This document shows, piece by piece, positions 2,177-15,259 of a stretch of DNA of 16,184 bases. Origin of the DNA: an uncultured Ancrocorticia sp. (GTDB lineage: Bacteria; Actinomycetota; Actinomycetes; Actinomycetales; Actinomycetaceae); contig CAJPTB010000004.1 of the NCBI GenBank assembly GCA_905373325.1, positions 1 through 16,184 of the forward strand, in the 5' to 3' direction. A program made the translations under genes and the position numbers. The notes under the pieces are model-generated. The model saw only the letters and a list, made by a program, of their open reading frames with translations. It was not told the origin of the DNA and did no database searches. Positions within the stretch are counted from its first letter, which is position 1. Each line of letters starts with the position of its first letter.

Positions 2177-2206
2177 TGTTTTGTTTGGTTTTTCCCATAC
2201 AAAACA
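2177..2206. promoter_or_regulatory. Inverted repeat TGTTTTGT-N14-ACAAAACA, candidate operator
   Basis: Two perfect 8-base arms (2177-2184 and 2199-2206) are offset by 22 bases, about two helical turns, in the A/T-rich core of the modA/mog gap. The left arm overlaps the candidate modA -35. The spacing suits a dimeric DNA-binding protein acting on molybdate uptake. The winged-helix-MoaD protein at 12019 is one candidate binder, but nothing in the sequence proves it. Confidence 0.4.
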
Positions 2207-3633: not shown

Positions 3634-3909
3634 GCGATGATCATGCACTCTCGACGTCGGCTTGGCAATCGGCCCTCGATTTACGTAAGACTTTTCGCGT
3701 GTATTTCCGATCCGAGGCTCGAGACAGCGGTTCGCAACTCCGCAAAACGGCGAGTTTTCAACAAAGCATCGAGAACCGAATCCGCAGGGGCCCGACGCTT
3801 CGAAGGCCGCGCCGCCACCTCGGGTCAGCGGACTTGGTACGCTTTACTCATATTCATCGGATTTTCCCATCTTTAAAATCTTCCATGACGGACGACCGCG
3901 AGGAGCACT
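3634..3909. promoter_or_regulatory. Divergent mobA/narK regulatory region with candidate nar promoter
   Basis: No coding sequence is supported here. The right end (about 3840-3885) is A/T-rich and holds TAAAAT (3874-3879), a good -10 that would give a leader of about 25 bases before narK. No good -35 lies 16-18 bases upstream, as expected for an activator-dependent promoter. A perfect TTACGTAA palindrome lies at 3681-3688 on the mobA side. No TTGAT-N4-ATCAA (FNR) or NarL heptamer pair was found, so oxygen and nitrate control must use other sites. Confidence 0.45.
3736..3756. promoter_or_regulatory. Imperfect inverted repeat AACTC-N11-GAGTT upstream of narK
   Basis: Five-base arms at 3736-3740 and 3752-3756 pair perfectly around an 11-base spacer. 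A nested AAAAC-N5-GTTTT pair (3744-3748/3754-3758) overlaps it. The site lies about 120 bases upstream of the candidate nar -10, in a position suited to an activator or distal operator. Short arms make chance occurrence possible. Confidence 0.25.
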
Positions 3910-5217
3910 ATGAAATCCGCCGTTCTAACCGACTGGAATCCAGAGGATTCGCAGTCCTGGGACTCAAAGATCGCCTGGCGCACCCTCGCGATCACCACAT
4001 ACTCGATGATCATGGCGTTCTGCGTATGGTTCCTCGTGAGCGCCATCGCCCCGAAACTCAACGACATCGGCTTCCATCTGTCAAAAGAACAGCTCTACTG
4101 GCTGACGTCGATGCCGGGGCTTTCCTGCGGGCTCATCCGTCTGGCATACATGTTCCTCCCGCCACTGGTGGGCACGCGCAAGCTCGTCGGCTACAGCTCG
4201 CTGCTCTACGCCATTCCAATGCTCGGCTGGTTCGTGGCCGTGCAGAATCCGAACACGAGCTACGGGGTGCTGCTCGGCCTGGCTTTCGCCTGCGGAATCG
4301 GCGGCGGCTCCTTCTCGGGGTACATGCCCTCCACAGGTTATTTCTTCCCCAAGCGCCTGCAAGGAACGGCCCTCGGCATCCAAGCGGGCATCGGCAATTT
4401 GGGCATGTCCATCATCCAGCTCGTCGGCCCGCTCCTCATGGGCTTCGGCCTGTTCGGAATGACGTGGGTTGCCCCGCAAGCCGGTGCGAACGGCCCCATC
4501 CACGTGCACAACGCGGCGATCTTCTTTGTTCCCTGGACCATCGTGGCGGCGATCCTCGCCTTCACGCTTCTCAAAGACGTTCCGGTCAAGGCGAACATCC
4601 GCCAGCAGCTCGACATCTTCTCCAACTCCAACACCTGGGTCATGACCGCCATGTACGTCATGACTTTCGGAATCTTCTCCGGGTTCGCCGCGCAGTTCGC
4701 GCTCATCATCAACCAGCACTACGGCAAGGACAGCGCGTTTGCAGGCATGGAAGGCCTTCCCGCGGGCGCGGGCTACGCCTTCCTCGGCCCCCTCATCGGA
4801 TCCCTCGTGAGATTCGTCTGGGGCCCGCTGTGCGACAAATTCGGCGGTGCGATCTGGACCTTCGTCTCGGCGGTGGGCATGGCCGTCACCCTCGGCTGGG
4901 CGGCGCTCTTCCTGGAACCGAAGGACCTCGGCCAGTTCCCCGTCTTCCTGACGGCGATGCTTCTCATGTTCTTCTTCTCCGGCATCGGCAACGCCGGAAC
5001 CTTCAAACAGATGCCGATGATCATGCCCAAACGCCAGGCGGGCGGGGCAATCGGCTTCACCGCGGCGGTGGCCAGCCTGGGCCCCTTCATCGTCGGCGTC
5101 GCGCTCTCGTCCATGTCCGCAAGCCTGTGGTTCTGGCTGTGCGCCGCGTACTGCTTGGCGTGCGCCGCACTCTGCTGGGTCCGCTACGCCCGCCCGGGCG
5201 CGCCTTTCCCCGGCTGA
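3910..5217 (+). CDS. narK: Nitrate/nitrite transporter NarK
   Basis: Major-facilitator membrane protein (435 residues, about 12 hydrophobic segments) that brings in nitrate and exports nitrite for the reductase encoded next door. The two nitrate signature motifs are present: GIGGGSFSGYMPS (129-141) and GIGNAGTFKQMP (358-369). The two substrate-binding arginines are Arg77 (GLIRLAY) and Arg301 (GSLVRFVWGPLCDKFGG). ATG 3910 has AGGAGC four to nine bases upstream. The next gene, narG, starts 12 bases after the stop, so the pair is almost certainly co-transcribed. The family includes proton symporters (NarK1) and nitrate/nitrite antiporters (NarK2). The sequence alone does not settle which applies here, though linkage to narGHJI suits the antiporter role. 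Confidence 0.96.
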   Translation: MKSAVLTDWNPEDSQSWDSKIAWRTLAITTYSMIMAFCVWFLVSAIAPKLNDIGFHLSKEQLYWLTSMPGLSCGLIRLAYMFLPPLVGTRKLVGYSSLLYAIPMLGWFVAVQNPNTSYGVLLGLAFACGIGGGSFSGYMPSTGYFFPKRLQGTALGIQAGIGNLGMSIIQLVGPLLMGFGLFGMTWVAPQAGANGPIHVHNAAIFFVPWTIVAAILAFTLLKDVPVKANIRQQLDIFSNSNTWVMTAMYVMTFGIFSGFAAQFALIINQHYGKDSAFAGMEGLPAGAGYAFLGPLIGSLVRFVWGPLCDKFGGAIWTFVSAVGMAVTLGWAALFLEPKDLGQFPVFLTAMLLMFFFSGIGNAGTFKQMPMIMPKRQAGGAIGFTAAVASLGPFIVGVALSSMSASLWFWLCAAYCLACAALCWVRYARPGAPFPG

Positions 5218-5229
5218 TCGGAGATTTCC

Positions 5230-8200
5230 ATGACATCTAAAGAGACACTTGGCTCCCCCCTCCTGAAGATGGGCTCGTGGCTTAGGCGAGGCCAGGCGAG
5301 CGGCGACGCCCACCAGCTCTTCCTCGAGGGCGGACGCCAGGCGGATTCCTTCTACCGCCAGCGCTGGAGCTACGACAAGGTGGTTCGTTCGACGCACGGC
5401 GTCAACTGCACGGGCTCGTGCTCGTGGAAGATCTACGTCAAGGACGGGATCATCACCTGGGAGTCTCAGCAGACCGACTACCCGACCACCGGCCCCGACA
5501 TGCCCGAGTACGAACCGCGCGGGTGCCCCCGCGGCGCCGCATTCTCCTGGTACGAGTACTCGCCCACGCGCATCAAGTATCCCTACGTCCGCGGGGTGCT
5601 GTTGGACATGTACCGCGAGGCCAAAGACCGCCTGGGCGACCCTGTTCTGGCATGGGGCGACGTCGTCGGCGACGCCGTCAAGGCCAAAGCCTACAAATCC
5701 GCCCGCGGAACGGGCGGAATGGTGCGCACGACGTGGGAAGAGGCTATGGAGATCGTCGCCGCCTCGTACGTCCACACGATCAAAGAATTCGGTCCGGACC
5801 GCATCGCCGGCTTTTCGGTCATCCCCGCGATGTCGATGATCTCCTATGCGGCGGGCTCGCGATTCCACGAGCTCATCGGCGCGACCATGCTCTCCTTCTA
5901 CGACTGGTACGCGGACCTTCCCCCGGCGAGCCCGCAGATGTTCGGCGATCAGACGGACGTCCCCGAATCCGGCGACTGGTTCAACTCGCAGTATCTCATC
6001 ATGTGGGGGTCGAACGTCCCGCTAACGCGCACGCCCGACGCCCATTTCATGGCCGAGGCCCGCTACCACGGACAAAAAGTGGTGGTGGTCTCCCCCGATT
6101 TCGCCGACAACACGAAGTTCGCCGACGACTGGCTGAGAGTTCAGCCCGGAACCGACGCGGCGCTGGCCATCGCCATGGGGCACGTCATTCTCAAGGAGTT
6201 TTTCCTGGCCCGGCGCGAGCAGTACTTCATCGACTACATGAAGCGCTACTCCGACAGCCCGTTCCTCATCCAGCTCGACCACGCGATCGATGCGAGCCCC
6301 TCGCACATGGAGACCTATGTTCCGGGCAAGTTCTACACCGCGAATCTTGCGCCCGCCGGAACCACCGTGCGCACCGAGCATAACGACTTCCGCCCGCTCG
6401 TCATGGAGGCCGACGGCGCCCTCAAGGATCCGGGCGGCACGCTGGCCGACCATTTCGGCGAAGAAGGCGCCGGTCACTGGAATCTCAAACTCGACGGCGT
6501 CGAGCCCGTGATGTCGGTCATGGACACTGACGCCTGGGAGCCCGCCCTCGTCGCGTTGCCGCGATTCGACCTTCCGGCCGAAGAGGGCCAGGGTTCGATC
6601 GGAGCCGGCGTCATGTACCGCGGAGTGCCCGCCCGCAGAGTCGGCGGCCGCCTGGTCACGACCGTCTTCGACCTTCTGCTCGCGCAGTACGGCGTGGGGC
6701 GCGAGGGGCTGCCGGGCCAGTGGCCTTCCGGCTACGGCGATTCGACCGCCCCCGGCACTCCTGCCTGGCAGGAGGAGCTCACGGGCGTGCCCGCCGGCGC
6801 AGCCATCAAGATCGGCCGGGAATTCGCCGTCAACGCGCTCGAATCCGGCGGGCGCTCGATGATCCTCATGGGCGCGGGGACGAATCACTACTTCCATTCT
6901 GACACGATCTACCGCACCTTCCTCGCGCTGACGACGATGTGCGGGACCCAGGGCGTCAACGGCGGCGGATGGGCGCACTACGTCGGCCAGGAGAAGGTCC
7001 GCCCCATCACCGGCTGGGCGAACTACGCCTTCGCCCTGGACTGGCAGCGCCCCGCGCGGCAGATGATCTCCACCGGGTGGTACTACGTTTCCACCAGTCA
7101 GTGGCGTTACGACGGCGCGCAGGTCAAGCTCATGGCGAGCCCGACCGCCGCCGGCGCGCTCAACGGCAAAACCACGGCCGACTGCCTGGTCGAGTCCGCC
7201 CAGCGCGGCTGGATGCCGAGCTATCCGACGTTCAACAAATCCCCGCTTGCGCTGGGCAGGGAGGCAAAAGAGGCCGGGCTGGCCCCCGGAGAGTACGTTT
7301 CGCGCGAGCTGCGCGAAGGCAGGCTTCGCTTCGCCGTGGAGGACCCCGACGCCGCCGAGAACGTGCCGCGCATCCTCGCCAATTGGCGCACCAACCTGCT
7401 GGGTTCGTCCGCCAAGGGAACCGAGTTCTTCCTTCGCCACCTCATCGGTGCCAACAACGACGTCAATGCCGTGGAACTTGAAGAAGATCGGCGTCCGGCC
7501 TCGATGACGTGGAGGGAGCCCGTCAACGGCAAGCTCGACCTCATGTGGACGGCCGACTTCCGCAACACCTCGACCACATTGCACTCCGACGTCGTCCTTC
7601 CGGCCGCGACCTGGTACGAAAAGCACGACCTGTCGTCGACGGACATGCACCCGTTCATGCACTCGTTCAACGCGGCGGTCGACCCGCCGTGGGAGGCCCG
7701 CACCGATTTCGAGACCTTCCAGACCCTCGCCTACCTCGTCTCCGGGATGGCTTCCAGGCATCTGGGAACGCAAATCGACGCGCTGGCGGCGCCGCTCAGC
7801 CACGACACCCCGGACGAATTCGCCAATCCCGCCGGGGCGGTCCCGTCCGACAACCCGTGGGTCCCCGGCGTGACAATGCCGAAAATCGTCGGCATAGAAC
7901 GCGATTACACGCAGATTGGCCATAAGTTCGACACCCTCGGCCCGCTCGTCGAGAAGGCGGGCATGCCGATCAAGGGGCTCCTGCTCACTCCAGACGAAGA
8001 GGTCGACTACCTCGGCAGACTGAACGGAACGGCTCCGCAAGACTACGGGCCGGGGGCCGGACGCCCGCTCGTCGACGGCGACGTCAAGGCCGCCGACGCC
8101 GTTTTGCGCCTGTCGGGCACGACCAACGGGCGGCTGGCCTACCAGGGATTCAAACGCCTGGAGGCCCGAACGGGAACCGAGATGGCGGACTTGGCTCTCG

Positions 8201-8955
8201 GCGACGAGGAACGCAGAATCAGCTTCGACCACACCCGGATCCAGCCGCGAAGCGTCATCACCTCGCCCGAGTGGTCGGGCTCCGAGCACGGCGGGCGCCG
8301 GTACAGCGCCTTCGTCCAGAACGTCGAACGGAACAAGCCCTGGCACACGCTGACCGGGCGCCCGCAGTTCTACATCGACCACGATTGGATGCAAGAGCTC
8401 GGCGAGACGCTGCCAATCTTCCGCCCTCCTTTGGACCTTCACCATTTGTACGGAGACGTCAAACTCGGCGCCACGGGGGTTTCGCCGGAGGGAACGGCCG
8501 AAGTCGCGGTGCGCTACCTCACCCCTCACAACAAATGGGCGATCCACTCCCAGTACTTCGACAATCCGCACATGTTGACGTTGGGGCGCGGAGGCCAGGC
8601 CATCTGGATGAGCCCCCAGGACGCGGAGAAGATCGGCGTCAAGGACAACGAATGGGTCGAGGCCTACAACCGAAACGGCATCGTTTCGGCCAGGGCGGTC
8701 GTCTCCCACCGCATGCCCGAAGGCACCGTGTTCATGCACCACGCCCAGGAGCGAACGATGAACACCCCGCTCAACGAACGCTCGGGCAGGCGAGGCGGAA
8801 CCCACAATTCGCTGACGCGCATCCTTCTCAAGCCGACCCATCTCATCGGCGGGTACGCCCAGCTTTCCTTCGCATTCAACTACTACGGGCCCACGGGCAA
8901 TCAGCGCGACGAGGTCACGATGATCCGCCGCCGCAGCCAGGAGGTGCAGTTCTGA
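5230..8955 (+). CDS. narG: Respiratory nitrate reductase alpha subunit NarG
   Basis: Catalytic subunit (1241 residues) of the membrane-bound nitrate reductase. It reduces nitrate to nitrite at a Mo-bis-MGD centre on the cytoplasmic face. HGVNCTGSCSW gives the FS0 cluster ligands His56, Cys60 and Cys64, with Cys99 in RGCPRGA. YADLPPASP places the molybdenum-ligating Asp at residue 229. GDQTDVPESGDW and WGSNVPLTRTPDAHF are further NarG signatures, and numbering runs 7 ahead of the E. coli protein. The N-terminus keeps WLRRG, a remnant twin-arginine-like segment typical of NarG rather than an export signal. ATG 5230 has GGAG six bases upstream. The stop overlaps the narH start by one base (TGATG). 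Length and motifs are intact. Confidence 0.98.
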   Translation: MTSKETLGSPLLKMGSWLRRGQASGDAHQLFLEGGRQADSFYRQRWSYDKVVRSTHGVNCTGSCSWKIYVKDGIITWESQQTDYPTTGPDMPEYEPRGCPRGAAFSWYEYSPTRIKYPYVRGVLLDMYREAKDRLGDPVLAWGDVVGDAVKAKAYKSARGTGGMVRTTWEEAMEIVAASYVHTIKEFGPDRIAGFSVIPAMSMISYAAGSRFHELIGATMLSFYDWYADLPPASPQMFGDQTDVPESGDWFNSQYLIMWGSNVPLTRTPDAHFMAEARYHGQKVVVVSPDFADNTKFADDWLRVQPGTDAALAIAMGHVILKEFFLARREQYFIDYMKRYSDSPFLIQLDHAIDASPSHMETYVPGKFYTANLAPAGTTVRTEHNDFRPLVMEADGALKDPGGTLADHFGEEGAGHWNLKLDGVEPVMSVMDTDAWEPALVALPRFDLPAEEGQGSIGAGVMYRGVPARRVGGRLVTTVFDLLLAQYGVGREGLPGQWPSGYGDSTAPGTPAWQEELTGVPAGAAIKIGREFAVNALESGGRSMILMGAGTNHYFHSDTIYRTFLALTTMCGTQGVNGGGWAHYVGQEKVRPITGWANYAFALDWQRPARQMISTGWYYVSTSQWRYDGAQVKLMASPTAAGALNGKTTADCLVESAQRGWMPSYPTFNKSPLALGREAKEAGLAPGEYVSRELREGRLRFAVEDPDAAENVPRILANWRTNLLGSSAKGTEFFLRHLIGANNDVNAVELEEDRRPASMTWREPVNGKLDLMWTADFRNTSTTLHSDVVLPAATWYEKHDLSSTDMHPFMHSFNAAVDPPWEARTDFETFQTLAYLVSGMASRHLGTQIDALAAPLSHDTPDEFANPAGAVPSDNPWVPGVTMPKIVGIERDYTQIGHKFDTLGPLVEKAGMPIKGLLLTPDEEVDYLGRLNGTAPQDYGPGAGRPLVDGDVKAADAVLRLSGTTNGRLAYQGFKRLEARTGTEMADLALGDEERRISFDHTRIQPRSVITSPEWSGSEHGGRRYSAFVQNVERNKPWHTLTGRPQFYIDHDWMQELGETLPIFRPPLDLHHLYGDVKLGATGVSPEGTAEVAVRYLTPHNKWAIHSQYFDNPHMLTLGRGGQAIWMSPQDAEKIGVKDNEWVEAYNRNGIVSARAVVSHRMPEGTVFMHHAQERTMNTPLNERSGRRGGTHNSLTRILLKPTHLIGGYAQLSFAFNYYGPTGNQRDEVTMIRRRSQEVQF

Positions 8956-10490
8956 TGAAGGTCATGGCGCAGATCGCAATGGTCATGAACCTCGACAAGT
9001 GCATCGGGTGCCACACTTGCTCGGTGACCTGCAAGCAGGCGTGGACGAACCGCGAAGGCACGGAGTACATGTGGTTCAACAACGTCGAGACGCGGCCCGG
9101 CGTGGGCTATCCGCGCACCTGGCAGGACCAGGAAACTTGGAAGGGCGGCTGGCGCAGGACGAAGTCGGGCAAGCTCCAGCTGCGCCAAGGCGGGCGTCTG
9201 GCCAGCCTTGCGAAGATCTTCTCGAATCCGACGCTGCCCGGCATGGACGACTACTACGAGCCGTGGACGTACGAGTACGACAAGCTGCTCTCCGCCCCCG
9301 CGGGCTCGGCGAACATCCCCGTGGCCCGAGCCAAATCGCGCATCACCGGCGAGAATATCGACACCATCGAGTGGGGTCCGAACTGGGACGACGATCTGGG
9401 CGGCTCCATGGAGACGTTGGACTCGGATCCAACGCTCAAGCAGATGAACCTCTCGGTCGCCAAGAACATCGAAGACTCCTTCATGTTCTACCTGCCGCGC
9501 ATCTGCGAACACTGCCTCAACCCGGCATGCGTCTCGGCCTGCCCCTCGGGCGCGATGTACAAGAGGACGGAGGACGGCATCGTCCTGGTCGATCAAGACG
9601 CCTGTCGCGGGTGGCGCATGTGCGTCTCGGCCTGCCCCTACAAGAAGGTCTACTTCAATCACAACTCCGGCAAAGCCGAAAAGTGCACGCTGTGCTATCC
9701 GCGCTTGGAGGCGGGCCAGCCGACGGTGTGCTCGGAAACCTGCGTTGGCCGCCTGCGCTATCTGGGGGTTGTCCTCTATGACGCCGACCGCGTGACATGG
9801 GCCGCCGCGCAGGAAGACGAACGGAGTCTTTTCCCCGCGCAGAAGGAGATCCTGCTCGACCCCCACGACCCCGAGGTGGTCGCGCAGGCGCACATGAACG
9901 GCGTGCCGCATTCGTGGATCACCGCCGCCCAGGAATCGCCCATTTGGGACCTTATCTCCACCTACGGCGTGGCGCTTCCCCTCCATCCCGAGTTCCGCAC
10001 GCTTCCCATGGTCTGGTATGTTCCGCCGCTCAGCCCCGTCGTCGACGCCGTCACCGCCTCGGGCAACGACGGCGAAGACCACAGGGTGCTGCTGTCGGCG
10101 ATCTCGCAAATGCGCATTCCCATGGAGTATCTGGCCGGGCTCTTCACCGCGGGCGACACCGCCCCCGTCGAGCTCTCGCTCAGGCGCCTGGCGGCCATGC
10201 GCTCCTACATGCGCGACGTGTTCATGGGCCGCGAAGGCAACGAGAGCATCGCCGCCTCGGTGGGCATGGACGGGGCGACCATCCAAAAGATGTACAGGCT
10301 TCTGGCCATCGCCAAGTACGACGAAAGGTACGTCATACCCACGGCCAGCCCGGAGCTTCCCCGCGGGATTTCGGAGCTCGAAGGCTGCCCGGTCTCCTAC
10401 GACGTCGAAGCGTTCCACGGGGTCGGCCCGGGCATGAACCCCACCCGTTCGGACGGACGCCGCATGCTCCCCCTCGAGGTTCTCCGATGA
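8955..10490 (+). CDS. narH: Respiratory nitrate reductase beta subunit NarH
   Basis: Iron-sulfur subunit (511 residues) that carries electrons from the NarI haems to NarG. Four cysteine groups are present at the same residue numbers as in E. coli: C16/19/22/26 (CIGCHTCSVTC), C184/187/192/196 (CEHCLNPACVSAC), C217/223/227 with Trp220 (CRGWRMCVSAC) and C244/247/259/263 (CTLC to CSETC). The tryptophan replacing a cysteine in the third group is the family marker of the [3Fe-4S] cluster. The start overlaps the narG stop by one base and the stop overlaps narJ by four (ATGA), which suggests translational coupling and fixed subunit ratios. A longer in-frame opening exists upstream but lies inside narG and is not used. 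Confidence 0.98.
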   Translation: MKVMAQIAMVMNLDKCIGCHTCSVTCKQAWTNREGTEYMWFNNVETRPGVGYPRTWQDQETWKGGWRRTKSGKLQLRQGGRLASLAKIFSNPTLPGMDDYYEPWTYEYDKLLSAPAGSANIPVARAKSRITGENIDTIEWGPNWDDDLGGSMETLDSDPTLKQMNLSVAKNIEDSFMFYLPRICEHCLNPACVSACPSGAMYKRTEDGIVLVDQDACRGWRMCVSACPYKKVYFNHNSGKAEKCTLCYPRLEAGQPTVCSETCVGRLRYLGVVLYDADRVTWAAAQEDERSLFPAQKEILLDPHDPEVVAQAHMNGVPHSWITAAQESPIWDLISTYGVALPLHPEFRTLPMVWYVPPLSPVVDAVTASGNDGEDHRVLLSAISQMRIPMEYLAGLFTAGDTAPVELSLRRLAAMRSYMRDVFMGREGNESIAASVGMDGATIQKMYRLLAIAKYDERYVIPTASPELPRGISELEGCPVSYDVEAFHGVGPGMNPTRSDGRRMLPLEVLR

Positions 10491-11173
10491 GCACATTCGT
10501 GGGAATCCCCAGGATCCCGAGCAAACGCCGCATACGGGTCGACGCCGACCAGGCCCGGATTATACGCATGGCGTGCTCGCTGCTGCTCGACTACCCCGAC
10601 GAAGCCCTCGAAAGCGAGATCGCCGCGGTCAGGGCGGAGCTGCACGCTCTGCCGGACGAGGTGGCCGAAGAACTGGAGGCCTTCTGCACGCAGGCAGAAC
10701 AGATGGGGCTGCGCGCACTTCAGGTTCTCTACGTCGAGACCTTCGACCAGCGTCGGCGCTGCGCTTTGTCGTTGACCTACTATTCGCAGGGCGACACACG
10801 AGGGCGCGGCCAAGCGATCCTCGCTTTCAAAGAGGTCATGGCCCGCGCGGGCTTCGAGCCGGCTCGCGAAGAGCTTCCCGACCACCTGCCCGTGGTTTTG
10901 GAGTTCTGCGCCCTCGACGAATCCGGCGTCGGCGAAGACCTGCTGGGGGCGAACCGGGAGGGAATAGAGGTGCTCCGCACGGCTCTGCGCAGCGCCGATT
11001 CGCCTTACGCCCACCTTCTCAACGCACTCGTCCTGACGCTTCCGGAACCCAGCCCGGAAGCGATCGAAGGCTATCGAAAGCTCATCAGCCAGGGGCCGCC
11101 CACCGAACTCGTGGGCATAGGCGATCTGACCGCCACCCCTTTCCCGACGTCGCAGGAAAGGCTGCAACCATGA
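10487..11173 (+). CDS. narJ: Nitrate reductase assembly chaperone NarJ
   Basis: Cytoplasmic chaperone (228 residues) of the NarJ/TorD group. It binds apo-NarG and assists insertion of bis-MGD and the FS0 cluster, and is not part of the final enzyme. It is recognised from YPDEALESEI near residue 37, the strongly conserved YVETFDQRRRCALSLTYY segment with GDTRGRG after it, and an all-helical, acidic make-up. It overlaps narH and narI by four bases on each side (ATGA), so starts and stops are fixed by context. About 25 basic residues at the N-terminus (PRIPSKRRIRVDADQ) precede the core domain. Confidence 0.95.
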   Translation: MSTFVGIPRIPSKRRIRVDADQARIIRMACSLLLDYPDEALESEIAAVRAELHALPDEVAEELEAFCTQAEQMGLRALQVLYVETFDQRRRCALSLTYYSQGDTRGRGQAILAFKEVMARAGFEPAREELPDHLPVVLEFCALDESGVGEDLLGANREGIEVLRTALRSADSPYAHLLNALVLTLPEPSPEAIEGYRKLISQGPPTELVGIGDLTATPFPTSQERLQP

Positions 11174-11889
11174 CCGTTCTCGATACCCTCCTATGGGTCG
11201 CACTTCCATACGTGTCGTTCGTCCTGCTCGTGGCGGGCCTTCTCTGGCGCTACCGCAGCGACCAGTATGGGTGGACGAGCCGTTCCTCGGAATGGAACGA
11301 GAAGGCCATCTTGCGGTGGTCCTCCCCCCTCTTTCACATCGGCATCCTGTGCGTTGCCGGAGGGCACGTGGTCGGCTTGGCCGTACCCGCCTCATGGACT
11401 GAGACCTTCGGCGTCTCGCAGCACATGTACCATCTTGGCGCCACCGTGCTCGGCTCTATCGCCGCCCTTATGACGATCGTTGGATTGGTGGGGCTGATCT
11501 ATCGACGCTTCGTCGTGAAGTCCGTACGGTTGGCCACGACCCGCAACGACATCGTCACCTACGTCCTTCTGACGATTCCCATCGTCTTGGGGACGGTTGC
11601 CACGGTCAGCTCGCAGATCTTCGGCGGGCATGAGGGATACAACTACCGCGAAACCATCAGCCCGTGGTTCCGCTCGATCTTCACGTTCAGTCCGAAGCCC
11701 GAACTCATGCTTGACGTCCCCATGACCTTCAAGCTGCACATCGTGGCGGGCCTTCTGCTCTTTTGCATCTGGCCTTTCACGCGCCTCGTCCATGTCGTCT
11801 CGGCCCCGGTGGGCTACCTGACCCGGCCCCAGGTGGTTTATCGTTCGCGCGACCGCGCCAAGCCCGTGTCCCGTCCGCGCGGCTGGTGA
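11170..11889 (+). CDS. narI: Respiratory nitrate reductase gamma subunit NarI
   Basis: Membrane cytochrome b (239 residues, five predicted membrane segments) that oxidises quinol and passes electrons to NarH. The haem-ligand histidines fall at His56 and His66 (LFHIGILCVAGGH), the same numbers as in E. coli, and at His190 and His208 (FKLHIVAG, TRLVHVVSAP). The actinobacterial quinol is probably menaquinol. ATG 11170 overlaps the narJ stop (ATGA). The C-terminus is short, basic and cytoplasmic. It is the last structural nar gene and is followed by 129 bases before the regulator-MoaD gene. Confidence 0.97.
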   Translation: MTVLDTLLWVALPYVSFVLLVAGLLWRYRSDQYGWTSRSSEWNEKAILRWSSPLFHIGILCVAGGHVVGLAVPASWTETFGVSQHMYHLGATVLGSIAALMTIVGLVGLIYRRFVVKSVRLATTRNDIVTYVLLTIPIVLGTVATVSSQIFGGHEGYNYRETISPWFRSIFTFSPKPELMLDVPMTFKLHIVAGLLLFCIWPFTRLVHVVSAPVGYLTRPQVVYRSRDRAKPVSRPRGW

Positions 11890-12018
11890 ATTCGCACGCA
11901 GCCCCGAGCCGGCGAAGCCCGAGGCGCGGCCCGCTGTGCCTCGTAGGCGCGGCCGGCCGGCGACGGCGCGCGTAGAATGCCGGTCAAAGGGCGAAACGCA
12001 ATCTGCAAAGGAGGGTCC
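11890..12018 (+). promoter_or_regulatory. Gap between narI and the regulator-moaD gene, possible internal promoter
   Basis: Very GC-rich and non-coding. TAGAAT at 11973-11978 resembles an actinobacterial -10, about 40 bases before the GTG start, but no -35 is visible (the region reads GGCCGGCCGG). An excellent ribosome-binding site, AAAGGAGG, lies at 12007-12014. The gap may carry a second promoter for the Moco genes. No clear terminator follows narI, so read-through from nar is also likely. Confidence 0.35.
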
Positions 12019-13008
12019 GTGAGCGCCAAGCGCCATCGATTCGGCGATCTGCTGTCTGCGATCGCCCGATTGACCCCTGCGCAGCACTCGCTTCTGATCG
12101 CCGTCTCACGCCACAACGTCCCGGTGACCGTCACCCAGCTGGCCAAGGAAAGCGGCCTGCACTCCTCGTCCGTTCGCGAGACCATCGAGGCCCTCTACAA
12201 TTCGGGGTTGGTCACCCGCGAACAGCTGCCGGTTTCCGGGCGCGGCAGGCCCGCTCTCGGATACCTCACACTCGCGCCCGCAAACGCCGCTTTCGCCGGC
12301 CAGCTCCTCGAACAAAGCGTCTCGGCCATGCTCGCCTGGCTCCGCGTCAACGCCTCCAATCCGGTCGAGGCGGCCTACGACATCGGCGCGAGGTGGGGAG
12401 AACAGGCTGTGTCCGACAACGAGTCGGCCAAGCTCCCGGACGGCCCGAAAGCCTCCGGCCGCTCAGACTTCCCCCTCGCAAGCCACGCCGACTGCATCCG
12501 CCGTTTTCTTACGAATATGGGCTTTGCGGCAACCTCGCATCCGACTTCGCCGTCGTGCCTCATCCTCAACGCCTGCCCATACACCGACCCCGCCTTTCCG
12601 GATCCCCTGGCCCTCGAATTGCGCCGCGGCGCCGTTGAGCGCATCGTCCAGGCCGCCTGCGGCGCGGACGTCGACGTCGACTTCGCCGCCGACCCGGACA
12701 ACCCGGTCGTCGCAAAGGTGACGCTGTGCGAACAGGAGGGCCGGCGGCCGGCGGGCGGCGGGCGGCTGACCGTGCGCTTCTACGGAGGCGCCGCCGAAGC
12801 GGTCCAGACCGACAGCATGACGTTCCCGCGCTCCTCGGCGCCCGAGACCCTCCGTGCGCTCATAGACGAGCTTGTCGGCGAGTTCCCTGATTTCGCACGG
12901 GTTGCCGACATTTCCTCGTTTCTCGTCGACGAACGCGAGTCGGGAACGGACACGCCTCTTCGCGACGGCGCCGTCGTCGAGGTGCTGCCGCCCTTCGCGG
13001 GAGGGTGA
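12019..13008 (+). CDS. Winged-helix transcription regulator fused to MoaD (MPT synthase small subunit)
   Basis: A 329-residue, three-part protein. Residues of about 15-85 form a winged helix (VTQLAKESGLHSSSVRETIE, then a wing GRGRPALGYL). Residues 95-245 resemble the output domain of ArsR/SufR-type regulators (LLNCPF-like ILNACPY, Cys186), but the two other cysteines usually placed to bind an Fe-S cluster are not at the expected sites. Residues of about 248-329 are a complete MoaD: LTVRFYGGAAEAV at the start and VVEVLPPFAGG at the end, with the Gly-Gly tail that becomes the thiocarboxylate. The start is GTG 12019 because AGGAGG lies four bases upstream; an in-frame ATG at 11977 lacks this signal. 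It ends two bases before moaE. No other MoaD is in the window, so this is probably the working sulfur carrier as well as a regulator. Its DNA targets are unknown. Confidence 0.85.
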   Translation: MSAKRHRFGDLLSAIARLTPAQHSLLIAVSRHNVPVTVTQLAKESGLHSSSVRETIEALYNSGLVTREQLPVSGRGRPALGYLTLAPANAAFAGQLLEQSVSAMLAWLRVNASNPVEAAYDIGARWGEQAVSDNESAKLPDGPKASGRSDFPLASHADCIRRFLTNMGFAATSHPTSPSCLILNACPYTDPAFPDPLALELRRGAVERIVQAACGADVDVDFAADPDNPVVAKVTLCEQEGRRPAGGGRLTVRFYGGAAEAVQTDSMTFPRSSAPETLRALIDELVGEFPDFARVADISSFLVDERESGTDTPLRDGAVVEVLPPFAGG

Positions 13009-13009
13009 G

Positions 13010-13438
13010 ATGCTCGACGTCGTTCACACCGGGCTGACGGCCCAGCGGCTGGACGCCGCTGCAATTTGCAAGGATGCGCACGACCCGCGTTGCGGCGCCG
13101 TGGCGATGTTCCAGGGAACCGTCCGCGACCATTCGGGCGGCGCGACCGTGGCCGCGCTCGAGTACACGGCGCACCCCTCGGCCGCGCGCATTCTGCGGTC
13201 GATCGCGGAAGGCCTGACTCTGCGCCAAGGCGTTCACCGCGTCGAGGCCTGGCATCGAACGGGGCTGCTGGACGTCGGCGACCTCGTCATGGTGGTCGCG
13301 GTGGCCGCCGAGCACCGGTCCCAGGCCTTTGCCGCAGCCGAGGCCCTGGTGGACGAAGTCAAGGCTCGCCTGCCGGTGTGGAAGAAGCAGATCATGGCCG
13401 ACGGCAGCCACAGCTGGTCGGGATTGGAGTCCGCGTGA
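13010..13438 (+). CDS. moaE: Molybdopterin synthase large subunit MoaE
   Basis: Catalytic subunit (142 residues) of MPT synthase, which converts cPMP to molybdopterin using sulfur from thiocarboxylated MoaD. Seen: FQGTVRDHSGG with Arg39, LEYTAHPSA (50-58), WHRTGLLDVGD, EHRSQAF (His102, Arg103), Lys118 and VWKK (Lys125/126), all matching the active-site residues of the E. coli enzyme. ATG 13010 follows the regulator-MoaD stop by one base, with GAGGGTG as the ribosome-binding site. An earlier in-frame ATG lies inside the upstream gene. The partner MoaD must be the C-terminal domain of the preceding protein, so the synthase may contain a DNA-binding subunit. Confidence 0.95.
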   Translation: MLDVVHTGLTAQRLDAAAICKDAHDPRCGAVAMFQGTVRDHSGGATVAALEYTAHPSAARILRSIAEGLTLRQGVHRVEAWHRTGLLDVGDLVMVVAVAAEHRSQAFAAAEALVDEVKARLPVWKKQIMADGSHSWSGLESA

Positions 13439-14766
13439 GATTCAGCGTTTCAGAGCATCGGGCATTCCTCGAGGGGCTCGTCGAGCCGTTGGAGCCGCTC
13501 GAATGCGCCATCGACGCCCTGCCCTACGGAACCGGCCGGGAGGGTGCGCGGCCGCTCGCGGAAGCCCAGCCCGGCGCCGTCTGGCCGGGCCGTTCGGCTC
13601 CGCCCGTCGCGGCGGCCTCGGCCGGGCTCGTGCTGGCGCGGGAAGTGTTCGCACGCCTAAGCGTTCCCCCGTTCACGAACTCCGCGATGGACGGCTTCGC
13701 CGTACGCCACGCCGACGTCGCCCGCATTCCGGCCACGCTGCCCGTCTGCGGCGACGCTGCAGCCGGGGACACGCGCAAACGCGCGCTCGAGCCGGGGACG
13801 GCGGTTCGGATCATGACGGGAGCGGCGATGCCCGACGGCGCGGACACCGTCGTCAAGGTGGAAGACACGGATCATGCGCCCGGCGTGAGCGAGGCGCCCC
13901 CGACGGTGACGATCCGAGCGGCCCAGGCTCCGGGCGCCAATGTGCGCTTCAAGGGCGAAGACCTCGATGCGGGCGCACCCGTCCTTCCCGCGGGCGTCGT
14001 GCTCTCCCCCGCCGCGGTCTCGGCGGCGGCGTCGGCGGGCTGCGGGACGCTCTTCGTCCGGCCCCGTCCGCGCATCGGAATTCTCACCACGGGAAGCGAA
14101 CTCGTCGCCCCGGGCGGGGAACTGGCCGAGGGCCGCATCCCCGACTCGAACGGGGTCCTTCTGGCCGGGCTCGCGGCGCAGGCGGGGGGCGACGTCGTCG
14201 CCAGATGGCGCAGCGCGGACGACCCCGAGGCTATGCTCGCGATTCTGGCGTCCGCGCCGGAGATCGATCTGCTCGTCACCGCGGGGGGCATATCCGCGGG
14301 GGCGTACGAGACGGTGCGGCAGGCCCTTTCCGGCCCCACGATGCGCTTCCACCACGTCGCCCAGCAGCCCGGCGGGCCTCAGGGCGCTGGGACCGCCCGC
14401 GTCGGCGGACGGTCCGTGCCGGCGGCGTGCCTGCCCGGCAACCCGGTGTCGGTCTACGTCAGCTTCCACGTGTACGTCGCCGGCATGATCCGGGTGCTCG
14501 CGGGGCGCTCCAGCACCGTCGAGCCGACGGTCGGGCAGGCCGTTGCGGGCGCCGAATGGGCCTCGCCTCACGGGAAAGTCCAGTTCATCCCCCTGCGTTT
14601 GGACGGCGGGCGCGCGTTCCCCATTCACGAACTCGGCTCACGCTCGCACCTTGTCGCCTCGCTTCCCTCGGCGGACGGGCTCGGCGTCGTGCCGGCCGAC
14701 GTCGAACGCGTGCGGCCCGGCGACACGCTGGGATTCATTCCAACCGAAGGAGGCGCCAATGGCTGA
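13435..14766 (+). CDS. moeA: Molybdopterin molybdenumtransferase MoeA
   Basis: A 443-residue protein that inserts molybdate into adenylated molybdopterin, releasing AMP. Family motifs in order: PPFTNSAMDGFAV (78-90), GTAVRIMTGAAMPDGADTVV (121-140), PGANVRFKGED (167-177), ILTTGSEL (216-223), IPDSNG (235-240), TAGGISAGAYE (282-292), QQPGGPQGAG and LPGNPVSV (333-340). A GTG start at 13435 overlaps the moaE stop as GTGA, a typical coupled arrangement, and gives a product that begins in the usual place for this family. The stop overlaps moaC by eight bases. It is presumed to work with the Mog-type protein encoded at 2369. Confidence 0.95.
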   Translation: MRFSVSEHRAFLEGLVEPLEPLECAIDALPYGTGREGARPLAEAQPGAVWPGRSAPPVAAASAGLVLAREVFARLSVPPFTNSAMDGFAVRHADVARIPATLPVCGDAAAGDTRKRALEPGTAVRIMTGAAMPDGADTVVKVEDTDHAPGVSEAPPTVTIRAAQAPGANVRFKGEDLDAGAPVLPAGVVLSPAAVSAAASAGCGTLFVRPRPRIGILTTGSELVAPGGELAEGRIPDSNGVLLAGLAAQAGGDVVARWRSADDPEAMLAILASAPEIDLLVTAGGISAGAYETVRQALSGPTMRFHHVAQQPGGPQGAGTARVGGRSVPAACLPGNPVSVYVSFHVYVAGMIRVLAGRSSTVEPTVGQAVAGAEWASPHGKVQFIPLRLDGGRAFPIHELGSRSHLVASLPSADGLGVVPADVERVRPGDTLGFIPTEGGANG

Positions 14767-15259
14767 CGGAAAAGAAACCTCTCCCGGCGGCCTTGCCCAT
14801 CTGCGCTCAGACGGCGCCGCGCACATGGTGGACGTGACGGCGAAAGAGCCGACGGTTCGCGAGGCGACGGCCGTGGCCCGCGTCGAGTGCTCCGACGCCG
14901 TCATGGCGCGGCTGAGAGAGGGCTCCGTGCCGAAGGGAGACGTGTTCGCGGTGGCGAGAGTCGCCGGGATCCAAGCCGCCAAGAAAACGCCCACGCTGCT
15001 TCCCCTCGCCCACGTCATAGGCCTCCACGGCTGCGAAGTGGACGTGGAGCTGGCCGACGGAGGCGTGGCGATTCGCGCGACAGCGCGAACGGCCGACAGG
15101 ACGGGCGTCGAGATGGAGGCGCTGACTGCCGTGACGGTCGCGGCGCTCGCCGTCGTCGATATGGTCAAAGGTATCGACCGCTCGGCCGTGGTGGCGGAAG
15201 CGAAGATCGTCGCCAAATCCGGCGGGCGGTCGGGAAACTGGGTCCGGCCGGAAGACTGA
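14759..15259 (+). CDS. moaC: Cyclic pyranopterin monophosphate synthase MoaC
   Basis: A 166-residue enzyme that turns 3',8-cyclo-GTP (the MoaA product) into cPMP, the first stable Moco intermediate. Seen: HMVDVTAKEPTVREATA (22-38), KGDVFAVARVAGIQAAKKT (59-77), TGVEMEALTAVTVAAL (115-130), DMVKGIDR (Asp134, Lys137) and AKSGGRSG. The usual PLCHP is PLAHV, so the catalytic His85 is kept and its neighbouring cysteine lost. ATG 14759 overlaps the moeA stop by eight bases, with AAGGAGG five bases upstream. It is the last gene of the plus-strand Moco run. MoaA, its required partner, is not in the window. Confidence 0.95.
   Translation: MADGKETSPGGLAHLRSDGAAHMVDVTAKEPTVREATAVARVECSDAVMARLREGSVPKGDVFAVARVAGIQAAKKTPTLLPLAHVIGLHGCEVDVELADGGVAIRATARTADRTGVEMEALTAVTVAALAVVDMVKGIDRSAVVAEAKIVAKSGGRSGNWVRPED

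Follow-up and report, generated by a model that had tools for sequence, protein, structure and literature searches.

What is known of how the output of molybdoenzymes is matched to the supply of their cofactor comes mostly from molybdate sensors and an RNA element. Trigger enzymes, of which BirA is one, are pathway proteins that carry a DNA-binding domain and bind DNA as their own activity dictates. At a nar locus, the closest described regulator is ArnR of Corynebacterium glutamicum. It represses hmp and the nar genes (narKGHJI), binding the narK and hmp promoters in an NO-sensitive manner, senses NO through a [4Fe-4S] cluster that requires Cys179, Cys193 and Cys223, and is made of a winged helix and a sensor domain (PMC12343034). 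MoaD, for its part, is the small subunit of MPT synthase, a free-standing protein (e.g. mycobacterial MoaD2, structures 6jc0/6jbz). It is also found inside multidomain proteins, in MoaX (MoaD and MoaE in one chain) and in other fusions (MoaD-MoaE, MoaD-MoeB). The partners there are pathway enzymes, and the tail of the MoaD-MoaE fusion is blocked until cleavage (PMC11237513). Finally, a beta-grasp domain joined to a winged helix occurs in the HTH-SLBB fusions, where SLBB binds soluble ligands (PMC1796856).

The window analysed here, a stretch of 16,184 nucleotides taken as a whole, encodes a protein that shares features with all of these. MoaD is its C-terminal domain, not a free-standing subunit. 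As in MoaX and its kin MoaD belongs to a multidomain protein, but here it is joined to a DNA-binding protein, its tail is free and moaE is a gene of its own. As in BirA, a cofactor-pathway function and a DNA-binding domain share one polypeptide, and the domain make-up, known here from sequence, fits that of a trigger enzyme. By contrast with BirA, where the second domain is unrelated, it is here a sulfur-carrier protein domain. An HTH-SLBB identity was considered and rejected, as Pfam calls the domain ThiS and its tail is Gly-Gly. The explanation that we favour, with somewhat better than even confidence, is that of a bifunctional protein: an ArnR-descended regulator located at the narKGHJI-moa cluster, with the MoaD of MPT synthase as its C-terminal domain.

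Architecture and neighbourhood of the fused gene

The original prediction read in a single frame a winged helix, a regulator-type middle domain and a full MoaD with its Gly-Gly tail, preceded by narGHJI and followed by moaE. This is what is found (Table 1). The frame is intact, with zero internal stops over its 329 codons, and it begins with GTG behind a strong Shine-Dalgarno sequence. It lies 3′ of narI, ends with LPPFAGG and is directly 5′ of moaE, which starts one base past its stop codon. Pfam recognizes MarR_2 at residues 18–75 and ThiS/MoaD at residues 272–329, both passing the cut-off, while solved MoaD structures match the protein from residue 246–248 through 329. The C-terminal domain has the ThiS/MoaD beta-grasp fold and an unblocked C-terminal Gly-Gly (a divergent homologue, P0052, ends with AAG, not Gly-Gly). 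The usual partners of MoaD are at hand, MoaE in the window and ThiF/MoeB in 21 of 21 fused relatives.

Table 1. Position of the features discussed in the text, numbered from the first nucleotide of the window.
Feature	Position	Strand	Remark
modA-mog dyad, TGTTTTGT-N14-ACAAAACA	2177..2206	.	30 bp, between modA and mog; the window's best match to the element model
Weak counterpart of the narK-upstream element	3843..3878	-	5.8 bits; two close relatives have a strong element here
narK, narG, narH, narJ, narI	3910..11889	+	names from reading frames, no family search; narI 11170-11889
Shine-Dalgarno GGAGGG of the fusion gene	12010..12015	+	from sequence; duplex -12.6 kcal/mol
Fusion gene, wHTH, middle (sensor-like) domain and MoaD	12019..13008	+	329 aa
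Winged helix-turn-helix (wHTH)	12070..12270	+	residues 18-84
Middle domain	12292..12738	+	residues 92-240; Bet3/TRAPP-like predicted fold; homologue of the ArnR sensor domain
Cys186 codon	12574..12576	+	sole widely conserved cysteine; aligned to ArnR Cys179
MoaD domain	12766..13005	+	residues 250-329; Gly-Gly codons 13000-13005
moaE	13010..13438	+	ribosome site (duplex -10.8 kcal/mol) inside the fusion gene's final codons
moeA	13447..14766	+	
moaC	14765..15259	+	

The domain order and neighbourhood recur in relatives. A protein search returned 59 homologues; 21 full-length homologues were aligned, 39–89% identical to the query, in an alignment that holds one extra row (P0055) without MoaD. In 19 of the 21 loci obtained by scanning named genomes, narI lies immediately upstream and moaE follows within the cluster (at 1.8 and 7.4 kb in L011 and L015); the remaining two consist of a regulator half with no nar genes. 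The order narK-narG-narH-narJ-narI is identical in relatives. The nearest named locus is that of Peptidiphaga gingivicola (L002; Actinomycetaceae), with a fusion 94% identical to that of the window. In the family, 71 of 213 genomes match at E ≤ 1e-20, 21 of them over the full length, and in all 21 narI lies within 1.5 kb of the fusion. In Propionibacteriaceae two of five loci are fused (L004, L020).

The fusion is thus not absent from relatives. A frameshift or missed stop codon was rejected: both halves are in one open frame in 17 of the 19 nar-linked named loci, and the other two, of Propionibacterium acidifaciens and P. australiense, have truly separate adjacent genes for the regulator and moaD, each with its own ribosome site. 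A sequencing error is very unlikely because full-length homologues of identical architecture exist at 98% (P0002), 89%, 64% and 39–51% identity.

We found no description of such a fusion in the titles and abstract beginnings of the open-access papers listed. Of two beta-grasp reviews searched by term, one has neither HTH nor DNA-binding (PMC1779556), and the other, without HTH, uses 'DNA-binding' twice (PMC1949818). What would be new here, as read from the sequence, is an ArnR-descended regulator that lost its cluster ligands and to which a MoaD domain was added, the names of the two halves already adjoining in annotation. An automatic annotation (P0036) pairs them as 'ArsR family transcriptional regulator/m...'. 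Conversely, a regulator half standing alone (P0065; L021 9968-10708) bears the database name 'molybdenum cofactor biosynthesis protein MoaD', apparently carried over from the fusion; neither MoaD nor MoaE was detected in its genome. The records of Xylanimonas cellulosilytica 352_XCEL (L007) and Sanguibacter keddieii 250_SKED (L008) carry regulator and nar loci that hardly differ from those of Schaalia odontolytica, and their organism labels look wrong.

Descent of the regulator half and its candidate DNA site

The regulator-type middle domain of the original prediction is real, but it now finds its place as a homologue of the ArnR sensor domain that has lost most of the Fe-S ligands. Compared by profile with a wider family of regulators bearing three cysteines (12 members), the regulator half scores 99.8% probability over 209 columns; it also shares 27% identity over 213 aa with an ArnR-like protein near narI. 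Such proteins are encoded 2.6–2.8 kb downstream of narI in three of seven wider stretches from a genus of small genomes within the same class (g274), and two of the three, the 27% identical one among them, have cysteines at 179, 193, 222 and 223. The link to ArnR runs through these ArnR-like proteins, which share its cysteine numbering, and not through the C. glutamicum protein itself. There was no Corynebacterium-named protein among the best 120 of the 1262 matches of the protein search. In the other family searched, none of 30 narI loci with 1.5-kb flanks had an ArnR next to narI. As in ArnR, a winged helix goes with a homologous sensor domain, and the gene sits at the narKGHJI locus, downstream of narI. 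V4R is a bacterial relative of the Bet3 fold predicted for this domain.

It is in its cysteines, and in the added MoaD, that the fusion departs from ArnR. Cysteine counts and tree are based on 47 aligned rows, 24 of them fused, and omit 15 same-species copies (L081-L084, L087, L088, L090, L092-L097, L099, L100). None of the fused rows has the set of three. The equivalent of Cys179, Cys186 in the window, is present in 23 of the 24, L098 being the exception; in the alignment of full-length homologues P0048 and P0054 lack it as well. That of Cys193 is found in no fused row (0/24), nor is that of the neighbouring His (0/24), while that of Cys223, gone in the window, survives in L004 alone (1/24). 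The cysteine pattern is retained in the unfused, narI-adjacent L103 and in the unfused L105, L107, L108 and P0073. Loss of Cys193 is not tied to the fusion, since its equivalent is also absent from unfused metagenome proteins (P0064, P0066, P0067) and from the unfused, narI-adjacent L106. We infer from these alignments that the fused clade descended from regulators of the Fe-S type and lost the cluster site. Because the ligands are replaced in the fused rows and MoaD is added, the known NO/Fe-S mechanism of ArnR is not simply transferable. In two unfused Propionibacterium regulators (L017 and L019, ~10001–10700) the cysteine cluster GCPFGCTDESC stands where the Fe-S ligands were lost, and is possibly another metal site.

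On the tree the fused label requires five changes, three of which well-supported branches make unavoidable (mean after shuffling 16.1), and a single origin of the fusion appears in none of the bootstrap trees; given the long branches, the midpoint root and several open forks, the number and direction of fusion events are uncertain. Unfused proteins (L101, L102/L021, L104) are nested within the fused clade. Their genomes, three members of the Schaalia genus group (G587, G594, G589), keep the regulator half, and in them neither MoaD nor MoaE is found by Pfam, nor MoaD by a family profile. This distribution suggests that MoaD was shed upon loss of the cofactor pathway while the DNA-binding half remained, a half that can be kept without MoaD, as these genomes have it alone. 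Judged by eye, the frames next to L101, L102 and L104 seem unrelated (tRNA adenosine deaminase-like, glycerol-3-phosphate dehydrogenase-like).

The winged helix is the most conserved portion of the fusion. Over 22 fused rows, query included, 28 of its 67 positions are invariant; the middle domain has 12 such positions out of 149 and MoaD 9 out of 80, six of the latter's last eight (VLPPFAGG) being invariant. The helix at residues 49–61 is taken as the recognition helix, and the wing (residues 74–82) reads GRGRPALGY. We find it quite probable that this winged helix binds the region upstream of narK. There, a 36-bp element (aTTT...TTGgTAnnaTCCcTnnTAAA) is present in 11 of the 14 regions searched, the window, L017 and L019 being set aside as non-matching. 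The underlying 20-base motif scored 123.4, versus 59–64 in five shuffled sets that were given fewer search starts. When each locus was left out in turn, at sites chosen with all loci in view, the element was the best match in 11/11 (14.6–42.4 bits; smallest margin in L018), which does not amount to 11 independent events, since several loci are close relatives. In fused loci outside the model it was the best match in 2/2 (21.3 and 26.6 bits; maxima of 60 simulated sequences 11.4 and 13.5), and in unfused nar loci in 0/4 (6.1, 8.6, 12.6 and 2.4 bits, none above simulation). The scan left out L007, L008, L009 and L015, near copies of L010 and L011; the contig of L004 has no usable sequence upstream of narK.

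The window and P. gingivicola are exceptions, with an element that is weak at narK and, in L002, not among the four best matches. The dyad between modA and mog scores 12.8 bits in the window, inside the range of simulation (maximum 13.4 in 60), and its counterpart in P. gingivicola (L002 454-483) is the best match there, at 19.2 bits, above simulation. The arms of the latter read TATTTT...AAAATA, the G-C pair of the window having become A-T on both sides. A palindromic operator was sought and rejected: an exact-dyad search yields nothing common beyond near relatives, save a short dyad in L005 and L017, and the conserved 36-bp element is not a clean palindrome. The narK element may be the operator of the fusion regulator, or a promoter, or the site of another factor.

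The fused MoaD as a probable sulfur carrier

The original prediction noted that the window has no separate MoaD, and saw in the fusion a DNA-binding protein doubling as the sulfur carrier. The first statement is true of the window, but its nearest kin, P. gingivicola, has a stand-alone MoaD of 83 aa elsewhere. The second is upheld in 18 of the 21 fused genomes of the family, where the fused MoaD is the sole one detected, but meets with a second MoaD in Peptidiphaga. The search for MoaD and MoaE covered 50 of the 71, among them every fused genome, and left out 21 with weaker matches. By Pfam, the fused MoaD is the sole match of the ThiS family, together with one MoaE, in these 18. Pfam alone is not to be trusted on this point, since PF02597 missed MoaD in 7 of 23 non-fused, MoaE-bearing genomes (G486, G488, G498, G501, G534, G544, G600), and a family profile (A7), built from 17 MoaDs, was therefore added and run on 33 genomes. 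In the same 18 it again found no MoaD but the fused one, and it detected a stand-alone MoaD in 5/5 retested genomes missed by Pfam. With the same profile P. cyclohexanicum has the fused copy only, and Propionibacterium HOT 192 the fused copy plus a partial match at E 0.10. ThiS matches in frames of ~770–840 aa, which from length and position we take to be RelA-type TGS domains, are excluded from the counts. Completeness is only 84% and 70% in two of the 21 fused genomes. Of the 18, six consist of one contig each, S. odontolytica FDAARGOS_732 included, and one of these six is rated 70% complete.

The ThiF/MoeB gene lies within 250 bp of moaE in 18/18 of these genomes. As the sole detected MoaD shares its cluster there with the single moaE and a neighbouring moeB, the fusion is very likely their working sulfur carrier, barring a MoaD too divergent for both searches; its thiocarboxylation by MoeB and its activity in MPT synthase would be implied by this sole-MoaD status. 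In the three genomes of the Peptidiphaga group ThiF/MoeB is found at a second locus. These genomes, G001 (Peptidiphaga) and two assigned to its genus, have at that locus, apart from the fusion, another MoaD that stands alone and another MoaE. In P. gingivicola this second Moco locus (L024 73-1290, 1498-1749) comprises a Mog-like and MoaE chain, the stand-alone MoaD and a moaA-like frame. The nearest kin of the window own a second MPT synthase set. With two MoaDs in these kin, the argument for a sulfur carrier is weaker for the window itself, and in Peptidiphaga the second MoaD could see to biosynthesis.

What MoaD may bring to the regulator

Our best reading of this combination is that MoaD replaced or supplemented the Fe-S input in a nar regulator resembling a trigger enzyme. 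That DNA binding depends on the state of the MoaD tail (free, thiocarboxylated or bound within MoaE), as originally proposed, we regard as a serious candidate, at a little under even chances. The more specific proposal, in which thiocarboxylation or MoaE binding switches an ArnR-derived repressor on the nar and moa promoters, a Moco sensor superseding the Fe-S/NO sensor, is more tentative. In its most economical version, the one that we adopt, which follows the logic of BirA-type trigger enzymes, the free fusion dimer would sit on DNA and repress narK; MoaE would capture the MoaD tails during cofactor synthesis; the dimer thus engaged would leave DNA and the nar genes would be expressed. The three Schaalia-group genomes nested in the fused clade with a regulator half and neither MoaD nor MoaE count against signalling by MoaD, which, judging from their gene content, is dispensable there for the role of this half.

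About as likely, and at odds with the signalling step only, is that the middle domain senses redox or a small ligand while MoaD is tethered for the sake of stoichiometry with MoaE. The neighbouring separate genes of P. acidifaciens and P. australiense show a route to such a fusion, the regulator half persists without MoaD in the three genomes just mentioned, and the middle domain offers both a Bet3-like predicted fold and a cysteine kept in nearly all fused rows. Yet the C-terminal position of MoaD has been maintained over several genera, and inside the fused clade, as far as the 50 family genomes examined show, regulator and moaD never occur as a split pair together with MoaE.

Rather unlikely is a further proposal, that free MoaD comes from an internal start or from proteolysis, the full-length protein being merely a regulator. 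The old start of MoaD is a GTG in L004 and an ATG in L020 (ribosome-site duplexes -7.4 and -6.6), and candidate starts are also found in L006 (ATG, -9.2), L014 (ATG, -5.7) and L015 (GTG 12 codons upstream, -9.3). By contrast, L007-L010 and L012 have no ATG, GTG or TTG within 16 codons, and these include the complete chromosome of S. odontolytica, where no other MoaD was found. In the window and L002 the only candidate is a GTG preceded by a weak site (-7.2 and -6.3), near the 10% quantile of background (-7.0), where the separate moaD genes reach -11.1 and -10.8. An internal start would be possible in L004, L006, L015 and L020, and unlikely in the window. As to cleavage, MoaD-MoaE fusions elsewhere are cut by a JAMM protease, as cited in PMC11237513, but none is needed here, MoaD being C-terminal and its tail already free. 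Far less probable again is that the winged helix decayed to a scaffold, leaving an ordinary MoaD that carries a long N-terminal extension: its DNA target is a predicted one and the Peptidiphaga rows form a long branch, but this helix is the best conserved part of the protein, and three genomes keep the regulator half where MoaD is gone.

Returning to the bifunctional protein, the sole MoaD detected in 18 nar-bearing genomes of the family sits within an ArnR-derived regulator of the nar cluster, so that a direct coupling of cofactor assembly to transcription can be tested with one protein. Basic genetic tools are available for S. odontolytica XH001 (PMC12369343). The fusion is also a case in which a sensor domain's loss of Fe-S ligands can be traced alongside the acquisition of a biosynthetic domain by the protein. 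If signalling by MoaD is true, a ubiquitin-like sulfur carrier would be the signal-input domain of a transcription factor, a molybdenum-cofactor sensor at the protein level. In some actinobacteria, including species that dwell in the mouth, one and the same protein probably helps make Moco and controls the genes of an enzyme that requires it.
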